Below, piece by piece: positions 17,202-25,258 of a stretch of DNA of 27,270 nucleotides. Within the stretch, counting starts at the first letter, position 1. Every line of letters begins with the position of its first letter. This DNA is from a virus. Under the pieces are notes generated by a model. That model did no database searches. It was not told the DNA's origin and saw only the letters and a program-made list of their open reading frames with translations. The translations under genes were made by a program, and so were the position numbers. The stretch is from the IMG/VR virus record IMGVR_UViG_3300030328_002043, positions 1 to 27,270 of that record; one strand, given 5' to 3'.

Positions 17202-17656
17202 TCTCTACCATCCCAAACCCTGTAAACAACTTCATATTCTACTGTAACATCGAATGGGAATGCAGCGAAGTGCAAATCAACATTACCAAAATCAGGTGCT
17301 AAACCATTCTGCATGTATATACCATTCTGTACAAAATAACCTTTCATATTAAAAGTATAATTATTGAACTTAACAGTATTATTAATAACTTCAAAACTTA
17401 AATGAGTTGCTGAATAATTAAAATCACTAACTTCAACTAAACCATAAGTAGTATTAGTTTCAATAGTAATTAATGGTGCATACAATAATGAAGTGTTATT
17501 ATCTACACTAGTTAATGTAAAGTTACCATTTAACTTTAGCCATGCTTTCTGGGGTGCGTCATCTTCACTATAAACATCATCGGGGTCTGGTATTGCATCA
17601 GCACAACCTGCTAATAACGTACAAACCATAAGTAATGCCATCATTTTAGTTCTCAT
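17198..17656 (-). CDS. Secreted lipoprotein with many N-glycosylation sequons
   Basis: A 152-residue protein with a signal peptide: MRTK, a hydrophobic core (MMALLMVCTL), then the lipobox LAGC with Cys18 as the likely lipidated residue. The mature part begins acidic and carries at least six Asn-x-Ser/Thr sequons (NFT, NNT, NTT, NYS, NNT, NYT) in a beta-rich chain. It should be anchored on the outside of the host membrane and be heavily glycosylated. Roles in superinfection exclusion or surface change are possible but not shown. The start overlaps the JAMM gene stop as ATGA. Confidence 0.82.
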   Translation of the reverse strand: MRTKMMALLMVCTLLAGCADAIPDPDDVYSEDDAPQKAWLKLNGNFTLTSVDNNTSLLYAPLITIETNTTYGLVEVSDFNYSATHLSFEVINNTVKFNNYTFNMKGYFVQNGIYMQNGLAPDFGNVDLHFAAFPFDVTVEYEVVYRVWDGRE

Positions 17657-18198
17657 TCTTCATCATCTCCTATTTCATTATCCCAACTATACTGAGTATA
17701 TTCGTGATAGTTATTACCATCAGCGTCATACCTGAAGTACACGCTTTGCTTCTCACCATTACCTATAACAGTAGCGGAATCAAGGAATCTTTCATACATG
17801 CCTAATGTATTCATATCAGTACCACTCCAGAATGCTGCTCCAAATGGATGTGTATGAATCCATTCTTTCAAAGGGAACTTCATACCTGCAAGACCTTCTT
17901 CTTGCCCACCAAAGGTAACATAACCTGGATTTCCAGCACTAATATGACACTTATCATTACCATCAATTACTACCTGAATCTCTCTAGGTTTATCGAAAGC
18001 AGTTATAGACATATCCCATATTGTTTTATGGAAATTATCTATTGTTTTCTTGAGTTGAGACCTGTGTATTAAACATACATCTTCATATCTAGATTCTATT
18101 ATTCTTTTCCAATCAGGAATCACTTCTTCAAAGTCATCTCCTCTATAATCAATCAGATTAGTTCTGCCCTCTTCATTCATTTCTTTACCGTGTATCAT
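17653..18198 (-). CDS. JAB1/MPN (JAMM) metallopeptidase
   Basis: About 181 residues from ATG 18198, which makes an ATGA overlap and has GGAG nine bases upstream; an ATG at 18213 is the other option. The zinc site is complete: His115-Thr-His117-Pro, Ser125 and Asp128 in the order HxHP-x6-S-x2-D. Family members cut after the diglycine of ubiquitin-like proteins, for maturation or deconjugation. Here the window also encodes a Ubl with residues beyond its Gly-Gly, a ThiF/E1-like enzyme and an E2-like protein. A 110-residue N-terminal part precedes the zinc site. Phage tail JAB proteins are the main alternative, but no tail gene is nearby. Confidence 0.9.
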   Translation of the reverse strand: MIHGKEMNEEGRTNLIDYRGDDFEEVIPDWKRIIESRYEDVCLIHRSQLKKTIDNFHKTIWDMSITAFDKPREIQVVIDGNDKCHISAGNPGYVTFGGQEEGLAGMKFPLKEWIHTHPFGAAFWSGTDMNTLGMYERFLDSATVIGNGEKQSVYFRYDADGNNYHEYTQYSWDNEIGDDEE

Positions 18199-18683
18199 AG
18201 TAATGAACTCCATACATAATATGCCATACCTACACTTGCTATTCCTAGTAATGCTAGTCTAAGAGCATAGTTTGATTCCTTAGCATCCGTTGATGAATTA
18301 GGTGCGACAGTATCTACCGCATTACTAATTTGTTCTTCTTTCAACTCTTCTCTAACTTCTTTTAATTTACCATTAGTCGCTGATAGTTCCGCTTCACTCT
18401 GCTCAATTATTTCAGATATCTTTTCACTAATTTCTTGTGCTGCTTGATGAGGAGTAATTGTTTCTTTAATTTCTCCAACTACTTCTTCTTTCATTTGTTG
18501 AACCTTTTCAACATAAGCATCACCTGTCAAATCCTTTGCAGGAGTTTCTTTAATCAACTTACGATACCTTGCAGCACAGGCTGCTTTACTTCTACCAAGT
18601 TCATCTGCTATGGAGTCTCTATGCTCCTTAACAGACCAACCTTGTACTATTTTTTCTTCTTCATCTTTTGTCCATTTTGCCAT
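18195..18683 (-). CDS. Tail-anchored protein with Myb/SANT-like DNA-binding domain
   Basis: About 162 residues from ATG 18683 with AGGTGA upstream. Residues 4-45 look like a Myb/SANT helix-turn-helix (KWTKDEEEKIVQGW, then DSIADELGRSKAACAARYRKL). A long Glu/Lys-rich coiled coil fills residues about 60-115. The last 24 residues form one membrane helix (LRLALLGIASVGMAYYVW) at the very C terminus. The layout suggests a tail-anchored protein with its DNA-binding head in the cytoplasm, which could tether viral DNA or a replication complex to the membrane. It sits between the E1-like and JAMM genes and may be a substrate or part of that pathway. Confidence 0.75.
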   Translation of the reverse strand: MAKWTKDEEEKIVQGWSVKEHRDSIADELGRSKAACAARYRKLIKETPAKDLTGDAYVEKVQQMKEEVVGEIKETITPHQAAQEISEKISEIIEQSEAELSATNGKLKEVREELKEEQISNAVDTVAPNSSTDAKESNYALRLALLGIASVGMAYYVWSSLL

Positions 18684-18692
18684 AATAATCAC

Positions 18693-19313
18693 CTATATGT
18701 TTACTATAATTTTGTCCTTCACTTCTTCACCATTAAACCAACGTTGCATCCATTGTGCCCCATATCCAGCAATCGCTACGTGAGTAAAGTGTAAATCCTC
18801 AGTATTTAAGGATTCATTAAAGTTCTCTCCTTGACAGGAGAAAGAACCTTCTGGGCCATTTAGTAGAGTTTCACTAAAACCACTATCTGCAAGATAACTA
18901 ATTAACGCACCATTTCTACCCTGTGCCCTTAAGTCTAACCATGCCTGTTTACAATCCTCACCAAAACCAAGAGAGTACAGTAATTTTCTAACTGCTAAGT
19001 TATCTGCACAACATACAATTAAATCAAAACCATCTAACTGTTTCTTGGTTAAGATGGGATATGATTTACCCCAATTTAAACCAACATCCATTGCATGATT
19101 AAGACAAGTAGTGTTAAGTCTCATTGCAGTTACCTTATCTAAACCGATATCACCATGTTTAAAGTTTTGATAACTGATGTTTTTCAAATCAACAGTATCA
19201 GGGTCGTGCATGTGAATCTCATACAACCCTGTCCTATGAAGAAGTGGTGTAAGGAAACTCCCTATACCTCCAACTCCAATTACTAGCACTTTTCTTTTCT
19301 TCATTATATTCAT
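18693..19313 (-). CDS. ThiF/E1-like adenylating enzyme
   Basis: A 206-residue Rossmann protein. GVGGIGS lies at residues 13-19, then DPDTVDLKNISYQNF with Asp37, Asp39, Asn45 and Gln49, a DIGLDK loop ending at Lys60, and CADNLAVR with Asp104 and Arg109. These match the ATP and Mg sites of the E1/ThiF/MoeB fold, which adenylates the C-terminal Gly of Ubl proteins. Cys160 (SFSCQGE) is the best candidate for the thioester cysteine. The paired CxxC zinc site of ThiF and MoeB is absent, and it is shorter than those enzymes. The start is an ATGA overlap with the TFB gene. Confidence 0.88.
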   Translation of the reverse strand: MNIMKKRKVLVIGVGGIGSFLTPLLHRTGLYEIHMHDPDTVDLKNISYQNFKHGDIGLDKVTAMRLNTTCLNHAMDVGLNWGKSYPILTKKQLDGFDLIVCCADNLAVRKLLYSLGFGEDCKQAWLDLRAQGRNGALISYLADSGFSETLLNGPEGSFSCQGENFNESLNTEDLHFTHVAIAGYGAQWMQRWFNGEEVKDKIIVNI

Positions 19314-20239
19314 TTTAATATTCCTCCATTTCTTATTCCAGAGACAAACTCTTCCACAGTCATATTCTTAAGATTAGACTTATTGATATTTAACATAGGA
19401 AAAACTTTTTTGGAAACTAAACGTTGTGCAACTGCTGAACAGTTACAAACGTCACATATTTCCTGTTGGGTAAACTCTGGCTTACCCTCTTCACGCAATA
19501 TAGAAGTCATCCATATTCCTGTCGCCATATAACTTCTTGAGAAGTGTACATCATTGGCAGTTACTAATTGATGTAGATACTCTACAACCGACCTACAATC
19601 ACTAGTGAACTCTCTACTAGCATTCAAGTCATTACATACTCTATCAATCCAAGATGATATAGGCATGTTTTGTAATATGTGAGATTTACCTAAGAATCTA
19701 GCAAAGTGTCTAGCACATTTAGAAACCTTATGGGCATCTTCATTATTTCTATCAGCAATTTCACTTATACTAATAGGTATTCCATATTCTCTTAGAGATA
19801 TAATTACAACACTACATGCCCTTAGAGTTAATGGAACTCCTGTAAACTTATTGTTAAGATACAGTTTACGATAATAACCGTGAACACTATCTTTCAAACT
19901 AGCATTAGGTAAATATGGTGAGAGTACCATATTACACTCTAACAGTCCTTTATTGATTGAAACATTCTTTTTATCTCTAAACCTCATCTGAGTTCTTTTA
20001 AGAGATGATAGAACTTTATTATTGGTTTTTCCTTCACCGATAAAAGAACCTAATGTTTTATCTGCTTCTTTAAGATAAATACCACTACCAAGATTATAGT
20101 GATGGTCTGTTGTTACTATGGTCTTACTAGTTTCTTCAAATATATTTGATACTTGAACATACCCACAATTAATACAGACATGTTCTCCCAATCTATCATC
20201 AATCTCAAAATCTAATCCTTCACATTCACTACACTTCAA
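19310..20239 (-). CDS. tfb: Transcription initiation factor TFB (TFIIB-like)
   Basis: About 309 residues. The start is probably TTG at 20239: it overlaps the previous TGA as TTGA, the same geometry as the ATGA junctions, and GGAGG lies 8 nt upstream. The zinc ribbon is Cys3, Cys6, Cys22, Cys25 (CSEC and CINC). Two cyclin-like repeats follow, the second with a helix-turn-helix region (FTQQEICDVCNCSAVAQRL) that would contact BRE DNA. A virus-encoded TFB could redirect host RNA polymerase to viral promoters, probably for a later gene class. It stands between the E2-like and E1-like genes. Confidence 0.9.
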   Translation of the reverse strand: MKCSECEGLDFEIDDRLGEHVCINCGYVQVSNIFEETSKTIVTTDHHYNLGSGIYLKEADKTLGSFIGEGKTNNKVLSSLKRTQMRFRDKKNVSINKGLLECNMVLSPYLPNASLKDSVHGYYRKLYLNNKFTGVPLTLRACSVVIISLREYGIPISISEIADRNNEDAHKVSKCARHFARFLGKSHILQNMPISSWIDRVCNDLNASREFTSDCRSVVEYLHQLVTANDVHFSRSYMATGIWMTSILREEGKPEFTQQEICDVCNCSAVAQRLVSKKVFPMLNINKSNLKNMTVEEFVSGIRNGGILK

Positions 20240-21582
20240 AGATGCTCCCTCCAATTATATGTTTCTTCATCTATCTCTGGTATTGGTATTGGATACCTAC
20301 TCTCCTTTTCACCAGATAAAACATCTTCATCTATGTGTCTACTAATAGTATGAACAAGTTTTACAGTTAGGCTATCATTCAATAAAGCCAATGCTCTTGC
20401 TGCAAACTGGTCTCCTAAACTAGAGTTAGAATGGATATTATCAATACATATTGAACCACTCCATTTATTTTCACTAGCCTTCCAAACATATACAGCAACT
20501 TTCTGAGTCGCACTACTATTTCTTCTGTCGAATAAAGCCCAATCACACATTTTTCCAGAAACCAACATAACCTTTTTACTTATTTCTCCATCCTTTACAT
20601 CAAATAGATTAATCCTGTCTGGATATTTAACAACTAAACTTTCCATTAATTCTTTTGCTCTATTTTCTACTAAGTCTTTAGTTCTATTTTGAACTAGAAA
20701 CTCTTTCATTAAATCTAATTGAGCATCAGTCGGTTCTTCACCCATACATCTAGTCCAAAGAGTTCTAGGGGAGCAATTCTTCCATCTACTAGACCTTTTA
20801 TGACCGAGATAAAATGTATTAATCATTGTATCTAAATCACTAACTTCTAGGCTACCCCATATACCATCAGATACTTCTATTGCTACTTCACTAGTTCCTA
20901 TTAATTGAGTATTTAATCTACAATCTACTTTGGCTCTTGTTGACATATCGAAGAAAAAATAAGGTAATCTATTTTCCAAGACATATGTTATGTTCTCTGG
21001 CAATTCTAACATACCCATGAGATAAGTAAGAAGTTTAACACCATCTTTTTCTGAACATGCTCTAAATAAGTAGCGTGATACAGAATACAAAAGATTGTTC
21101 TTCTTAACTCTTTGATTCATCAACTTGTAATATGTTTTACCTTTCTCAATTAAGATTACTCCCATTGGATTATGTTCAGGTAAAACTATTGCTAATTTAT
21201 ATGTTTCAGGTGCTTTCCACCAACCTCTTCTAGTACCAAGACCTAATATGTATTGAAGAATACCTTTTGCTTCTACTATAAGAGGCTCGCCTTTATGGTA
21301 TCCGCCTACATGTTTTACAGATATGCAGATGGTAGATTCCCTAACAATATCGCCATTGTGATTAGGAAACGCTCTATTAGTAACTACGTTATGTGCCCCT
21401 CCAAGATGTTGAGGATTGACAGTTCTATTGTAGTCGCTATTCAACATATTAATGGGATAAGTAGAATACAATTTGCATTTAGTTTCAACATATTGAGTCC
21501 TGTCATCAGAAGGAATATAAAATCTCACAATTAAATTGTATTTATTTTCATATGCATTTTCAAAACTATCTAAATTACTCAT
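20236..21582 (-). CDS. Large protein with an E2-like (UBC) N-terminal region
   Basis: A 448-residue protein from ATG 21582. Residues about 15-115 follow the E2 conjugating-enzyme pattern: strands (NLIVRFYIP, VETKCKLYS), a YPINML turn like YPxxPP, then FPNHNG...STICIS like HPNxxxxGxICL with Cys86 at the catalytic position, and EPLIVEAKGILQYILGLG like the W-P-x-L-x-I-x-x-I-L helix. About 330 residues follow with no family I recognise. The Ubl, E1-like and JAMM genes of the same strand support a conjugating role, but the E2 call rests on pattern and context. The start overlaps the previous stop by 8 nt. Confidence 0.5.
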   Translation of the reverse strand: MSNLDSFENAYENKYNLIVRFYIPSDDRTQYVETKCKLYSTYPINMLNSDYNRTVNPQHLGGAHNVVTNRAFPNHNGDIVRESTICISVKHVGGYHKGEPLIVEAKGILQYILGLGTRRGWWKAPETYKLAIVLPEHNPMGVILIEKGKTYYKLMNQRVKKNNLLYSVSRYLFRACSEKDGVKLLTYLMGMLELPENITYVLENRLPYFFFDMSTRAKVDCRLNTQLIGTSEVAIEVSDGIWGSLEVSDLDTMINTFYLGHKRSSRWKNCSPRTLWTRCMGEEPTDAQLDLMKEFLVQNRTKDLVENRAKELMESLVVKYPDRINLFDVKDGEISKKVMLVSGKMCDWALFDRRNSSATQKVAVYVWKASENKWSGSICIDNIHSNSSLGDQFAARALALLNDSLTVKLVHTISRHIDEDVLSGEKESRYPIPIPEIDEETYNWREHL

Positions 21583-21874
21583 TATCACCATCTCTTTTAT
21601 TGGTTATATATTGGTAATCACAACCTACTGATATAGCATAAACCAAAACAATATCTTTCTTTAATCTAGCAAATTGTCTCCAAGAATAATAGTCCTTACC
21701 TATCTTGGGTCTTTCTAATCCATTACCACGCCTTCTACCAAAACCATCTGCTTTGGTTCTCTTCCTATTATTTTCTCTCAGATATTGCTTTAACGCCTTT
21801 ATTATATCTGATTTGTGAATACTATTATATTCGATTTTTATTTCTTTCTTTTCATTTTCATTTTCTTCTTGCAT
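21575..21874 (-). CDS. Unknown small basic protein
   Basis: A 99-residue protein with a Glu/Lys-rich first 14 residues, a helix (KSDIIKALKQYLREN), a strongly basic Arg/Gly stretch (RKRTKADGFGRRRGNG) and a final alpha/beta part (LVYAISVGCDYQYI). The basic stretch suggests nucleic-acid binding. GAGG lies 8 nt before the ATG, and 37 nt overlap the end of the upstream gene. No family is recognised. It directly precedes the E2-like gene. Confidence 0.65.
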   Translation of the reverse strand: MQEENENEKKEIKIEYNSIHKSDIIKALKQYLRENNRKRTKADGFGRRRGNGLERPKIGKDYYSWRQFARLKKDIVLVYAISVGCDYQYITNKRDGDNE

Positions 21875-22323
21875 TTTAATTCCTCGTTAAAATCAACCTC
21901 TACAAATTGTACATCTTTAATGTAGTAACCATTGTCTAAGATTGCAGTAAACTTGTTCATTGGTACGATACTAACAAACTCAAGTTCTAATCTCTTTCTT
22001 CTTTCATTGTACCTGTATTTCCAGATTATATGTTTATTTCTCCATTTGGTACATTGAAACTTATTCCTCTTAGCCTTATTTTCTATATGGGCTGCTATCT
22101 TCAACACATCTTCTATTTCTGCATCTGGAACTCTCTCCATCAACCTTTCAATAAAGTGAGGTGTAAATACAGCCCAAAAGAAATGGAAACCATCTGCTTT
22201 GATTACTTTGTGATGTTCTGCATCAAACGGTTTGAACTCCGTACCGCAAGCCTGACAAATTAGTTTGCCTTTCATATTCAAATTAAACTTATTACTTCCA
22301 CATTTACAATCACTAAACTTCAT
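21838..22323 (-). CDS. Zinc-ribbon plus RelE/DUF4258-like protein
   Basis: A 161-residue protein. The N terminus is a zinc ribbon with CKCG (Cys6, Cys8) and CQAC (Cys23, Cys26). The rest resembles a RelE-type fold: TPHFIERLMER helix, EIEDVLKIAAH helix, then strands with HIIWKYRYNERRKRLELEFVSIVP. RelE-family toxins cut mRNA on the ribosome, but catalytic residues vary and cannot be judged here, and no antitoxin is obvious. It ends in a Lys/Met-rich tail that overlaps the next gene. GAGG lies 9 nt before the start, which overlaps the previous stop by 11 nt. Confidence 0.6.
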   Translation of the reverse strand: MKFSDCKCGSNKFNLNMKGKLICQACGTEFKPFDAEHHKVIKADGFHFFWAVFTPHFIERLMERVPDAEIEDVLKIAAHIENKAKRNKFQCTKWRNKHIIWKYRYNERRKRLELEFVSIVPMNKFTAILDNGYYIKDVQFVEVDFNEELKCKKKMKMKRKK

Positions 22324-22681
22324 TTTTATTCGCCTCTATATATTCTGATAATTCATATATTTCTATTATTTTTTCTTTTACAAGCAGAGCGTTGCTTTCC
22401 ATCAAATCAGATTTCATAATCATTATTCCTAATGCAATAAAAAATCTTTTTAGATACCATCTCTGAGATGTTTTGGTGGAGTTATATTCACCAACCTTTT
22501 TCAGTTCATTCAACTTCTCTAAGTAAACTGTTGCTATATGAGAAGCATCAAAGCAAGTCCAACCATATCGGGATACGGGAGTTATGGAGGTTGCACCCTC
22601 CAAAAACTCAACCATATATTTTTCCATAATAGATGCTTTATCTATCGTGTCAACTAAATCACATACGTGTTTATATTTCAC
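22313..22681 (-). CDS. Unknown helical protein
   Basis: About 122 residues if translation starts at GTG 22681, which has GGGTGG upstream and overlaps the RNR stop by 11 nt. The open frame runs on to 22732, but that part lies inside the RNR gene and is probably not used. The chain is mostly helical (VCDLVDTIDKASIMEKYMVEFL, IATVYLEKLNELKKV, LKRFFIALGIMIM, EKIIEIYELSEYIE). No family is recognised. Following RNR does not by itself indicate a nucleotide role. Confidence 0.65.
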   Translation of the reverse strand: MKYKHVCDLVDTIDKASIMEKYMVEFLEGATSITPVSRYGWTCFDASHIATVYLEKLNELKKVGEYNSTKTSQRWYLKRFFIALGIMIMKSDLMESNALLVKEKIIEIYELSEYIEANKNEV

Positions 22682-24599
22682 ATACACCACCCGCACAAGC
22701 AGGGTCAACACCGAAATTACTGTCATCGTCATATTCCATTATCTTAGTTAAATCAACTTCTTTCAAAACATCTAACATTCTATCATATGTTTCTTTATCA
22801 CATGATTCAAAAGGTGCTTGAACATACACACTCTCATCATTAGGGAAACAAGATAATCCATTGTAGAAATGTCTGTTGTTCCACATCCATTCACCTACCT
22901 CGAACCATTTATCTTTATCAATGTAAACTGTTGCAGATACATTGTGAGTATTTTGTCCATTGTTGTGTCCATGCTTGACCCAACCAACGGATGTTTCCTT
23001 TACTCTTTCTAAGAAATCAAATGTACTTTCATTTCTTTTAATTAACGCACCTTCGGGTGCTTTCTGTGGTATCTCTATAATCCTACCATCTGGATTGAAC
23101 TCATCATCTACAATAAGTTCTGGATGGTTTTGTGTTAGATAATCACATATTGCTTCTGTCTTACCTACTCTTATTCTTCTAATGTAATACTCATCGTGCC
23201 AAGCGTGAATACCTGATGATGAACCTAGAACCATAGAAGCAGTCCCAGATGGCTTAACACAAGTTACTCTTGATGCTGCATTTATCCCCAACATAGCAGC
23301 CCACTTAGCATTGACATCCTTAGCCATTAGAGCCGTTCCTGTAACGTCTAATCCCTTCAACCTATTAGATGCTAGTCCAGTCATTGAAACGCCTAGTAAC
23401 GCATCTTTTTCAGTAGTGGTTCTCCATATATCTCTAAGGTAATGGAAGTCTGTATAGGTGGCTTGCATTGTACCCAATATAGTCGCTGCTCTAACTCTAT
23501 TTTCTAAATCTTCTTGGTCTTCAACAGTAGAACTATTTACTTCGGTCAAATTACAAAATTGATAGGGTCTAAGAGCAATCTCACAACAAGGATTCGTTCC
23601 CCAATCTTTGTCGTTTGTTAGGTATATTCCTGGCTCACCAGAACCACCTGCTTCTACACGTTCCCACAATCCTTTGAAGAAAGATTTAGTTACTCTATGT
23701 CTTAGTAAAACAGCAGAATTATTCGCTCTAAATCTTTGTGAATTATCAACATAGAAATCACCTGCTTTACAGTTAATCATATGTTGGTCATCAGCACTAA
23801 ATAAACTGATTAATGCTGCTCGTCTATTACCACCTGCTGTAACAGCATCAGCAATATGACACATAATATCGTGACATTCTAGAGTTGTTAATCTTTCACC
23901 AGTATTCTTTGATTGAAGTATTCCTTCAACTTTAACCATACATTCACGCAATGGTGTTGCTCCTGGTGCTTTTCCACCTCTTGTTTTTAATCTAGTTCCT
24001 TTAGGTCTAATATCATCATAGATGAATCTTGGAGTTTGACTTAACTCACCTGTATAAGAACGGAATAGTTCTTTTACTGCATCAGCCCATCCAATTATAG
24101 AATCTTGAATTACAATCTTTCTAGTTCTATTCTTGTTTGGCAATACAATTTCTGGTAGTTGTTCTACATGATGTCTTTGAACAGAATAACCTACACCTGT
24201 TCCATTCATCAATAAAAACATACATTCGTGAAAACATTCTACTGAATCAACTGGCATGTATGCACAATTGTAGATAGAATTAGGGGATACTTCTATTGCC
24301 TTACCTGCATATTGCATTGAACGCATAGATGGAAGTATCTTGAATGTTCTAACGTAATTATTGTAAACATCTTTTAATTCTTCTTTCATTGCTCTTTTGC
24401 TTTCATCGCTACCATCAATAGAATCAATTTTTCTTAAGTGCATATCTAAGTTTCTGTCTACTATTTCATCCCAAGTTTCCTTTCTATATTCATGTGGAAG
24501 CCATTTAGCATACTTCATGTAAACCGTGATATCACTCATAATTTTGCTTGCTCTATTGTCATCGTCATCATCTTTTACTATACTTTTAAGTTCGTTCAT
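22671..24599 (-). CDS. nrdJ: Class II (adenosylcobalamin-dependent) ribonucleotide reductase
   Basis: A 642-residue reductase of the monomeric Lactobacillus RTPR type. Seen are PSMRSMQYAG, NGTGVGYSVQ, the NPCCEIALRPYQFCNLTE block with the radical and redox cysteines, CVKPSGTASM, and a C-terminal ACAGGVCEI that carries the shuttle cysteine pair. NCAYMP holds the partner cysteine. The family reduces ribonucleotides with a radical made from adenosylcobalamin, without oxygen and without a second subunit. The chain is about 100 residues shorter than the Lactobacillus enzyme. It supplies dNTPs for viral replication and implies that the host makes or imports B12. The start has AAGGTG upstream. Confidence 0.95.
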   Translation of the reverse strand: MNELKSIVKDDDDDNRASKIMSDITVYMKYAKWLPHEYRKETWDEIVDRNLDMHLRKIDSIDGSDESKRAMKEELKDVYNNYVRTFKILPSMRSMQYAGKAIEVSPNSIYNCAYMPVDSVECFHECMFLLMNGTGVGYSVQRHHVEQLPEIVLPNKNRTRKIVIQDSIIGWADAVKELFRSYTGELSQTPRFIYDDIRPKGTRLKTRGGKAPGATPLRECMVKVEGILQSKNTGERLTTLECHDIMCHIADAVTAGGNRRAALISLFSADDQHMINCKAGDFYVDNSQRFRANNSAVLLRHRVTKSFFKGLWERVEAGGSGEPGIYLTNDKDWGTNPCCEIALRPYQFCNLTEVNSSTVEDQEDLENRVRAATILGTMQATYTDFHYLRDIWRTTTEKDALLGVSMTGLASNRLKGLDVTGTALMAKDVNAKWAAMLGINAASRVTCVKPSGTASMVLGSSSGIHAWHDEYYIRRIRVGKTEAICDYLTQNHPELIVDDEFNPDGRIIEIPQKAPEGALIKRNESTFDFLERVKETSVGWVKHGHNNGQNTHNVSATVYIDKDKWFEVGEWMWNNRHFYNGLSCFPNDESVYVQAPFESCDKETYDRMLDVLKEVDLTKIMEYDDDSNFGVDPACAGGVCEI

Positions 24600-24600
24600 T

Positions 24601-24984
24601 TTAACACCTTATTGCTTTTCTATACGGCATCTCTGCTAGATTGGTGAATGCCGCACACCATTGACCGTTCTTTTTAACAGTCCATTGCTTCTCTACTTTG
24701 ATATCCCAATCTGGGAAAGTATCGAATGCTTTATTTCCATATTTATCATATAACTCAGAAAAGTCTGTGTAAGTCTTTCCTTTGTATTCTATTTCCATTT
24801 TGCCATCACATACGATAACAGCCTTTTTGCTGATAGCGAATACATGACCAGTAGGATAAAAGTCTGCTCTAACAACAGCCATATCCTTGTGAATCAAAAA
24901 ATCATTCTTAGCATTCCAACCAAATATATTCATTATATTTAGGAATGCATTTTTATCTATAAAATTAACATTGTCTTTAATCAT
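24601..24984 (-). CDS. Unknown protein before RNR
   Basis: About 127 residues from ATG 24984, which has GGGG 8 nt upstream. The longer frame to 25035 would start inside a hairpin and is not favoured. The chain is alpha/beta with many aromatic residues (NIMNIFGWNAKNDFLIH, DFYPTGHVFAI, KMEIEYKGKTY, DTFPDWDIKV, KQWTVKKNGQWCAAF). No family is recognised. It ends one base before the RNR start and could be co-regulated with it. Confidence 0.7.
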   Translation of the reverse strand: MIKDNVNFIDKNAFLNIMNIFGWNAKNDFLIHKDMAVVRADFYPTGHVFAISKKAVIVCDGKMEIEYKGKTYTDFSELYDKYGNKAFDTFPDWDIKVEKQWTVKKNGQWCAAFTNLAEMPYRKAIRC

Positions 24985-25002
24985 ATTAATACCCCAATGG
25001 GT

Positions 25003-25040
25003 GAGGGTGGGTAGTGAAGGCTTCATCTTACCCAACCCTC
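25003..25040 (-). promoter_or_regulatory. Strong imperfect hairpin after the Ubl gene
   Basis: A 38-nt inverted repeat with three paired blocks, GAGGGT/ACCCTC, GGTA/TACC and TGAA/TTCA, closed by a 3-nt loop and separated by small bulges. It begins 11 nt after the Ubl stop and lies before the ATG at 24984. A shorter pair (ACCC...GGGT) follows at once. No U-run follows on the coding strand, so it may be an RNA-processing or stability element, or a terminator of unusual type, rather than a typical intrinsic terminator. Confidence 0.65.
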
Positions 25041-25051
25041 GAATAACTCAC

Positions 25052-25258
25052 TTACTGAGTTCCGCCAACTATTGCTGGAATTAGGTCTACTGAAGTTACA
25101 GTATCCCAACTTACTTCTGATATCATTTCTCTTGATGTCAGTTCACCGTCAATGATTACCCAATGAGATGGGTGGTCATTAATTTGGTCTATCACCTGTG
25201 AACTAGTTTGGTTAACTAATTCAGTATGTCCAGATTCATTCATTATTGTCAATAACAT
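25052..25258 (-). CDS. Ubiquitin-like protein (ThiS/MoaD/SAMP type) with a Gly-Gly-Thr-Gln end
   Basis: A 68-residue protein with beta-grasp layout: a first hairpin (MLLTIMNESGHTELV), a helix (SQVIDQIN), a strand (WVIIDGELTS), then REMISEV and a final strand DLIPAIVGG. This parallels ThiS, which ends in VIAGG after an REQW-type segment and an xxILLF strand. The diglycine is Gly65-Gly66, followed by Thr67-Gln68, so the two last residues must be removed to expose the Gly carboxylate. The JAMM peptidase at 17653 could do this and the ThiF/E1-like enzyme at 18693 could activate it. It could act in protein conjugation or as a sulfur carrier. GAGG lies 8 nt before the start. Confidence 0.72.
   Translation of the reverse strand: MLLTIMNESGHTELVNQTSSQVIDQINDHPSHWVIIDGELTSREMISEVSWDTVTSVDLIPAIVGGTQ

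Follow-up and report, generated by a model that had tools for sequence, protein, structure and literature searches.

Ubiquitin-like (Ubl) protein systems as such are already known. What is new in the present case is the occurrence of such a set, made of a Ubl, an E1-like enzyme, a JAMM peptidase and a fourth protein, in archaeal viruses, together with a polyUbl counterpart in their probable hosts. Among the closest described systems are the bacterial polyUbl operons (Iyer 2006, table row 6e; PMC1779556) and the PRTRC cassette, in which a Ubl or tandem Ubl, an E1, a JAB peptidase and an E2-fold protein are encoded together. Some similarity to these systems is found at the level of the E1 (TIGR03736, 1e-11). 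However, in the locus studied here E1 and JAMM are separate genes, the set belongs to an archaeal virus and to an archaeal chromosome, and against PRTRC_B/Prok-E2_D the fourth protein scored within the range of the shuffles in a profile test. The Bil (BilABCD) and CBASS E1-E2-JAB systems obey the same Ubl/E1/E2/JAB logic, and several PADLOC E1-E2 profiles match the viral E1 (best 6.6e-12). These systems are known to defend bacteria against phages, whereas here it is marine archaeal viruses that carry the complete set among their core genes. None of the PADLOC profiles matches the fourth protein.

In archaea, the Haloferax SAMP/UbaA/HvJAMM1 system also associates a ThiS/MoaD-type Ubl ending in Gly-Gly with an E1 and a JAMM. 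It is nevertheless cellular, whereas the present case involves dedicated viral copies with variable tails, tandem host precursors and an additional Cys-domain protein. In Caldiarchaeum, the E2 is a canonical UBC protein. The E1/E2/RING/Ub operon of this organism (PMC5654768) is comparable in that an archaeon again encodes a Ubl cascade comprising an E1, an E2 and a protease of the JAMM type, but it is not viral.

In tailed viruses, the phage TAPI/TAPK proteins combine a Ubl with a JAB domain (PMC1779556). However, they form a tail-assembly module without E1, whereas here an E1 is present and the genes are located within a replication block. In the cultured crAss-like phage crAss001 (gp75-gp79, L252:4253-9475), a ThiF E1 adjoins a JAMM-domain gene (gp76-gp77) and a B12 ribonucleotide reductase is encoded nearby, but the accessory proteins are larger and different, and the fourth protein is unmatched there. 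A literature search, with incomplete coverage of these viruses, did not find this gene set reported in magroviruses or in Marine Group II.

The four-gene block in a magrovirus-like virus

The window, that is the whole stretch of DNA that was analysed, corresponds to IMG/VR virus record IMGVR_UViG_3300030328_002043 and comprises 27,270 bases. Nearly all its long ORFs are carried by the minus strand. Pfam searches identified an ERCC4 nuclease, an RFC small subunit, an ATP-dependent ligase, a B12-type ribonucleotide reductase and a family B DNA polymerase (PolB) split over two ORFs. One further ORF is regarded as TFB-like because it matches the TFIIB zinc ribbon (E 2e-5) and a PHROG. According to ICTV, Aoguangviridae and the 'magroviruses' of Poseidoniales share a split PolB, TFB, RFC-S, PCNA and ligase, with genomes of 90-100 kb (PMC10768690). 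The split PolB, the RFC small subunit, the ATP ligase and the TFB-like ORF of the window fit this description of Magrovirales, as do the ~95 kb of the relatives of the window virus (PMC10768690). From this gene content, matched to the ICTV description only, we infer that the window derives from a magrovirus-like virus, of which it covers a part.

The four ORFs singled out by the initial annotation lie on the minus strand, at or near the positions that it gave. The first one (25052..25258) encodes a protein of 68 amino acids ending in AIVGG-TQ, in which a beta-grasp Ubl had been recognised. Although its HMM gave no meaningful match against the PDB, profile-profile comparison with archaeal ThiS/MoaD/SAMP proteins (hhalign) yielded a global score of 26.9 (100 shuffles reached 9.7 at most) and a local probability of 80. 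The protein was found in 87 virus clusters. Its Gly65-Gly66 pair (codons 25061..25066) is invariant in all 88 aligned sequences and is followed by a variable tail, Thr-Gln in the window, of 0 to 9 residues; 13 clusters stop exactly at Gly-Gly. Such a variable tail behind an invariant Gly-Gly is the pattern expected of a trimmed modifier. Altogether, the comparison strongly supports a ThiS/MoaD/SAMP-type beta-grasp protein and bears out the earlier reading.

The E1-like enzyme (206 amino acids, 18693..19313, minus strand) is strongly supported as a member of the ThiF family (Pfam, 4.5e-18), and ThiF/MoeB are its top curated families. It had been described as having intact ATP-site residues. This holds for the glycine loop, D37, D39, N45, Q49, K60 and D104, which are invariant (96/96 sequences), but not for the NxxRQ motif, where the canonical Arg is replaced by Tyr48 in 93 of the 96. 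R109, R129 and R133 are also invariant, as is Cys160 (SFSCQG, codon 18834..18836) in 96/96.

The assignment of the 186-amino-acid protein (17653..18213, minus strand) to the JAMM metallopeptidases is likewise strongly supported by its sequence. In a profile search of the PDB, it resembled deubiquitinases, the top matches being for the most part AMSH/STAMBP and Rpn11. The HxHP...SxxD site (HTHPFG...SxTD, 17815..17856) is complete, as had been noticed, with E78, H120, H122, S130 and D133 invariant in the 96 sequences. The gene is retained in 16 of 16 large virus records. In one record (G375:C1:74774-75187), a TGA occurs within the JAMM frame.

Relatives were gathered by scanning with the alignments of three of the proteins (E1, Ubl and the fourth one), in records of up to ~100 kb and one of 185 kb, and were merged into 99 near-identical clusters. 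All four genes are present in 83 of them. The remaining 16 are fragments or split loci, cut at the end of the contig or of the locus; in one case, two loci of one contig (L061 and L134) were counted separately. Wherever the four genes are found together (194/194 loci), their order on one strand is Ubl, fourth protein, E1, JAMM. Thus, the survey of related viral genomes proposed by the initial annotation shows genes that travel together rather than being kept independently of one another. The module, made of a Ubl, an E1, a JAMM and a conserved partner with a Cys domain, belongs to the core genes of these marine archaeal viruses. It should be noted that the adjacent replication genes are likewise conserved, as a whole block around the four genes; co-occurrence in viruses alone is therefore not specific and is no proof of a functional link.

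Other genes are interspersed in the block. The TFB-like gene (19310-20254) is located between the fourth-protein and E1 genes, and a Myb-like protein, hydrophobic over a stretch at its C-terminus, is encoded between the E1 and JAMM genes (18195-18692). A further ORF (21838-22323) has a weak match to the T4 RegB endoribonuclease and a zinc-ribbon-like N-terminus.

The fourth protein and its invariant cysteine

The fourth component (20236..21591, minus strand) is a protein of 451 amino acids with 92 relatives, a candidate conjugating (E2-like) or adaptor protein. It had been proposed, as a 448-residue protein, to be E2-like because of a UBC-like FPNHNG...TICIS block, with Cys86 (89 in the 451-residue numbering) as the active site. 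This site is rejected, being wrong in position and in residue: the region is gapped and variable and its Cys is not conserved. Another candidate domain is found in the same protein. Cys382, in the motif GxICIDN (codon 20446..20448), is invariant over the 92 aligned sequences and is followed by the invariant residues D394, Q395, R399, N405 and D406. It closes a beta-meander within a C-terminal domain (residues 268-451, 20239..20790) modelled confidently by AlphaFold2 (mean pLDDT 92.7) as a helix, five strands, the Cys and a helix. Because of this other domain with its invariant Cys382, an E2-like role is possible.

The E2 question was addressed by structure and by profile comparisons. The model of the full-length protein (pLDDT 68) was uninformative in Foldseek and the C-terminal domain was used instead. 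Its comparison with the PDB gave no match at E<=0.001, E2s included; E2s accounted for 7 of the 50 top matches. An E2 fold is suggested, tentatively, for this domain. With hhalign, the score against Prok-E2_B was within those of the shuffles. However, in the same test, the accepted E2-like families Prok-E2_B and Prok-E2_D also fail to match each other, so that negative profile tests say little on E2 membership. A search for canonical E2s with UQ_con (PF00179) gave 0 matches in 398 genomes, hence no reference set. No HPN motif is present ahead of Cys382, where a variable insertion precedes GxICIDN. Cys382 strictly fits the right-hand part of the E2 signature, in the form that we take it to have, in 34 of the 92 sequences, that of the window included, as compared with 8 of 13,693 other cysteines.

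Cellular relatives were sought with a degenerate pattern, which gave three matches in bacterial MAGs and three distant ones in archaeal MAGs. The bacterial matches were discarded; their contigs also match the viral genes and seem to be viral ones that were binned wrongly. The archaeal ones led to phage modules. In a phage-like contig of a Methanomassiliicoccaceae MAG (L250:1194-4536), a 700-residue protein, a 72-residue protein ending in MGG, JAMM pieces and an E1 are encoded in a row. In a second contig (L249), a 702-residue protein related to the preceding one (3e-9) adjoins an E1. The two large proteins are collinear with the fourth protein (global profile alignment 26.0; maximum 15.1 in 60 shuffles).

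Protein conjugation as the best-supported function

As judged from these comparisons, protein conjugation is the best-supported function of the module. We would give a probability of about one half to a virus-encoded ubiquitin-like protein-conjugation pathway, for which we infer the catalytic steps, the E2-like role and the purpose. In a first step, the JAMM would cut the variable tail of the Ubl, leaving Gly-Gly exposed. The E1 would use ATP to adenylate the Ubl, which would then be bound as a thioester to Cys160. Cys382 of the fourth protein would take over the Ubl and hand it to lysine residues in proteins of the virus or of the host. Finally, the JAMM would also remove the Ubl from conjugates. 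The missing canonical Arg of the NxxRQ motif in the E1 counts against conjugation.

A pathway without E2, similar to that of the SAMPs, may also be envisaged. The E1 alone would support conjugation, the JAMM would reverse it, and the fourth protein would be an adaptor, a scaffold or the main substrate. An archaeal pair of Ubl and JAMM is indeed known, SAMP1 and HvJAMM1 of Haloferax (PMC4443979), and no significant E2 match was obtained for the fourth protein. Nevertheless, this possibility is rather unlikely in view of the invariance of Cys382 in 92 sequences and of the recurrence of the Cys domain beside E1 genes, in the phage contigs as well as in two host operons.

A related system in the probable hosts

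The host search covered 145 genomes belonging to the phylum of G002. Some E1 match at E<=0.001 is present in 126 of them. Among the matches listed, about 20 genomes have a near-full-length E1 match at E<=1e-24, and a JAMM gene adjoins such a host E1 in the loci inspected. With the Ubl profile, matches were obtained in 18 of 18 such genomes, mostly as two or three tandem units per ORF, and none in G002 and G489. In these tandem 'polyUbl' genes (L321-L340, e.g. G492:C1:111,202-111,666), most units end in a Gly-Gly motif. The Ubl of four sampled host genomes (L324, L326, L329 and L331) ends in LQAGK or LLAGQ, with AG and not GG, which counts against conjugation.

These genomes represent the probable host group of the viruses. 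Among them, G492 was the only one to be identified, as Marine Group II, through a match with zero mismatches to the 16S probe GII-554 of that group, the probe sequence being assumed correct. It also has a rhodopsin-like gene. In the E1-JAMM operon of G492, an ORF carries the C-terminal domain of the fourth protein and its Cys (E 7e-4, in 2.0 Mb; 0 matches in the reversed set). The Cys domain is found beside E1-JAMM in a second host locus (L316), where the frame looks broken. Virus and host sequences fall in separate groups of the E1 tree, which argues against recent exchange. The system of the probable hosts, a distant relative of the viral one, had not been described before; its tag is made as a row of repeats, like eukaryotic polyubiquitin.

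Since a homologous host system with a tandem-repeat Ubl exists, the viral set is most likely a parallel version, which would redirect, replace or outcompete that of the host in infection. The initial proposal that the virus may tag host or viral proteins, or block host tagging, is made more plausible by the homologous polyUbl/E1/JAMM system that the probable host lineage possesses. It is tempting to go further and to imagine a complete viral pathway of Ubl conjugation whose E2-like enzyme would be of a new class, parallel to the Marine Group II polyUbl system, both sides of the virus-host pair then tagging proteins; this extension is put forward tentatively. With a viral core module and a related set with polyubiquitin-like precursors in the probable hosts, the origin of polyubiquitin-like genes becomes directly testable with small expressible proteins, as does the part played by Ubl tagging in virus-host conflict outside eukaryotes.

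In another model, the Ubl would be a sulfur carrier, its thiocarboxylate feeding the modification of a tRNA, a cofactor or a nucleotide, and the JAMM would expose Gly-Gly or free the product. CysO/Mec+ and QbsE/QbsD are models for JAMM proteins acting in sulfur-carrier systems. The kinship of the Ubl with ThiS/MoaD, as well as the ThiF/MoeB affiliation of the E1, would agree with this function. However, searches of 15 large virus records for rhodanese, and of 16 for ATP_bind_3 and Aminotran_5 (cysteine desulfurase), gave no match, whereas the positive controls gave matches in 13 or 14 of 14 genomes. These results make pure sulfur transfer less likely, though a sulfur relay could operate via host enzymes. 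Moreover, the host G492 possesses a canonical E1 of the MoeB type as a separate gene, along with a gene for ThiS/MoaD, and tandem polyUbl precursors would be unusual for a carrier. We therefore regard a sulfur-carrier role as improbable.

Finally, the idea that the viral set does no tagging of its own and serves chiefly to jam or reverse the polyUbl system of the host, for instance by a JAMM stripping conjugates and a competing Ubl, would agree with the homologous host system and with the many deSAMPylases predicted on Borg elements (PMC12660748), but it appears very improbable, because a pure blocker needs neither an E1 with a full ATP site nor the fourth component and all of these are strongly constrained.

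Two observations on the host loci may be added to those on the polyUbl genes. Directly after the JAMM gene, the host operon carries a third small gene of ~75-97 codons (L313:6635-6925, L315:8439-8675 and equivalents), for which no function was found. In G583 (L322:1360-2640), two Ubl units are fused to the E1 in a single open frame, in the order Ubl-Ubl-E1.
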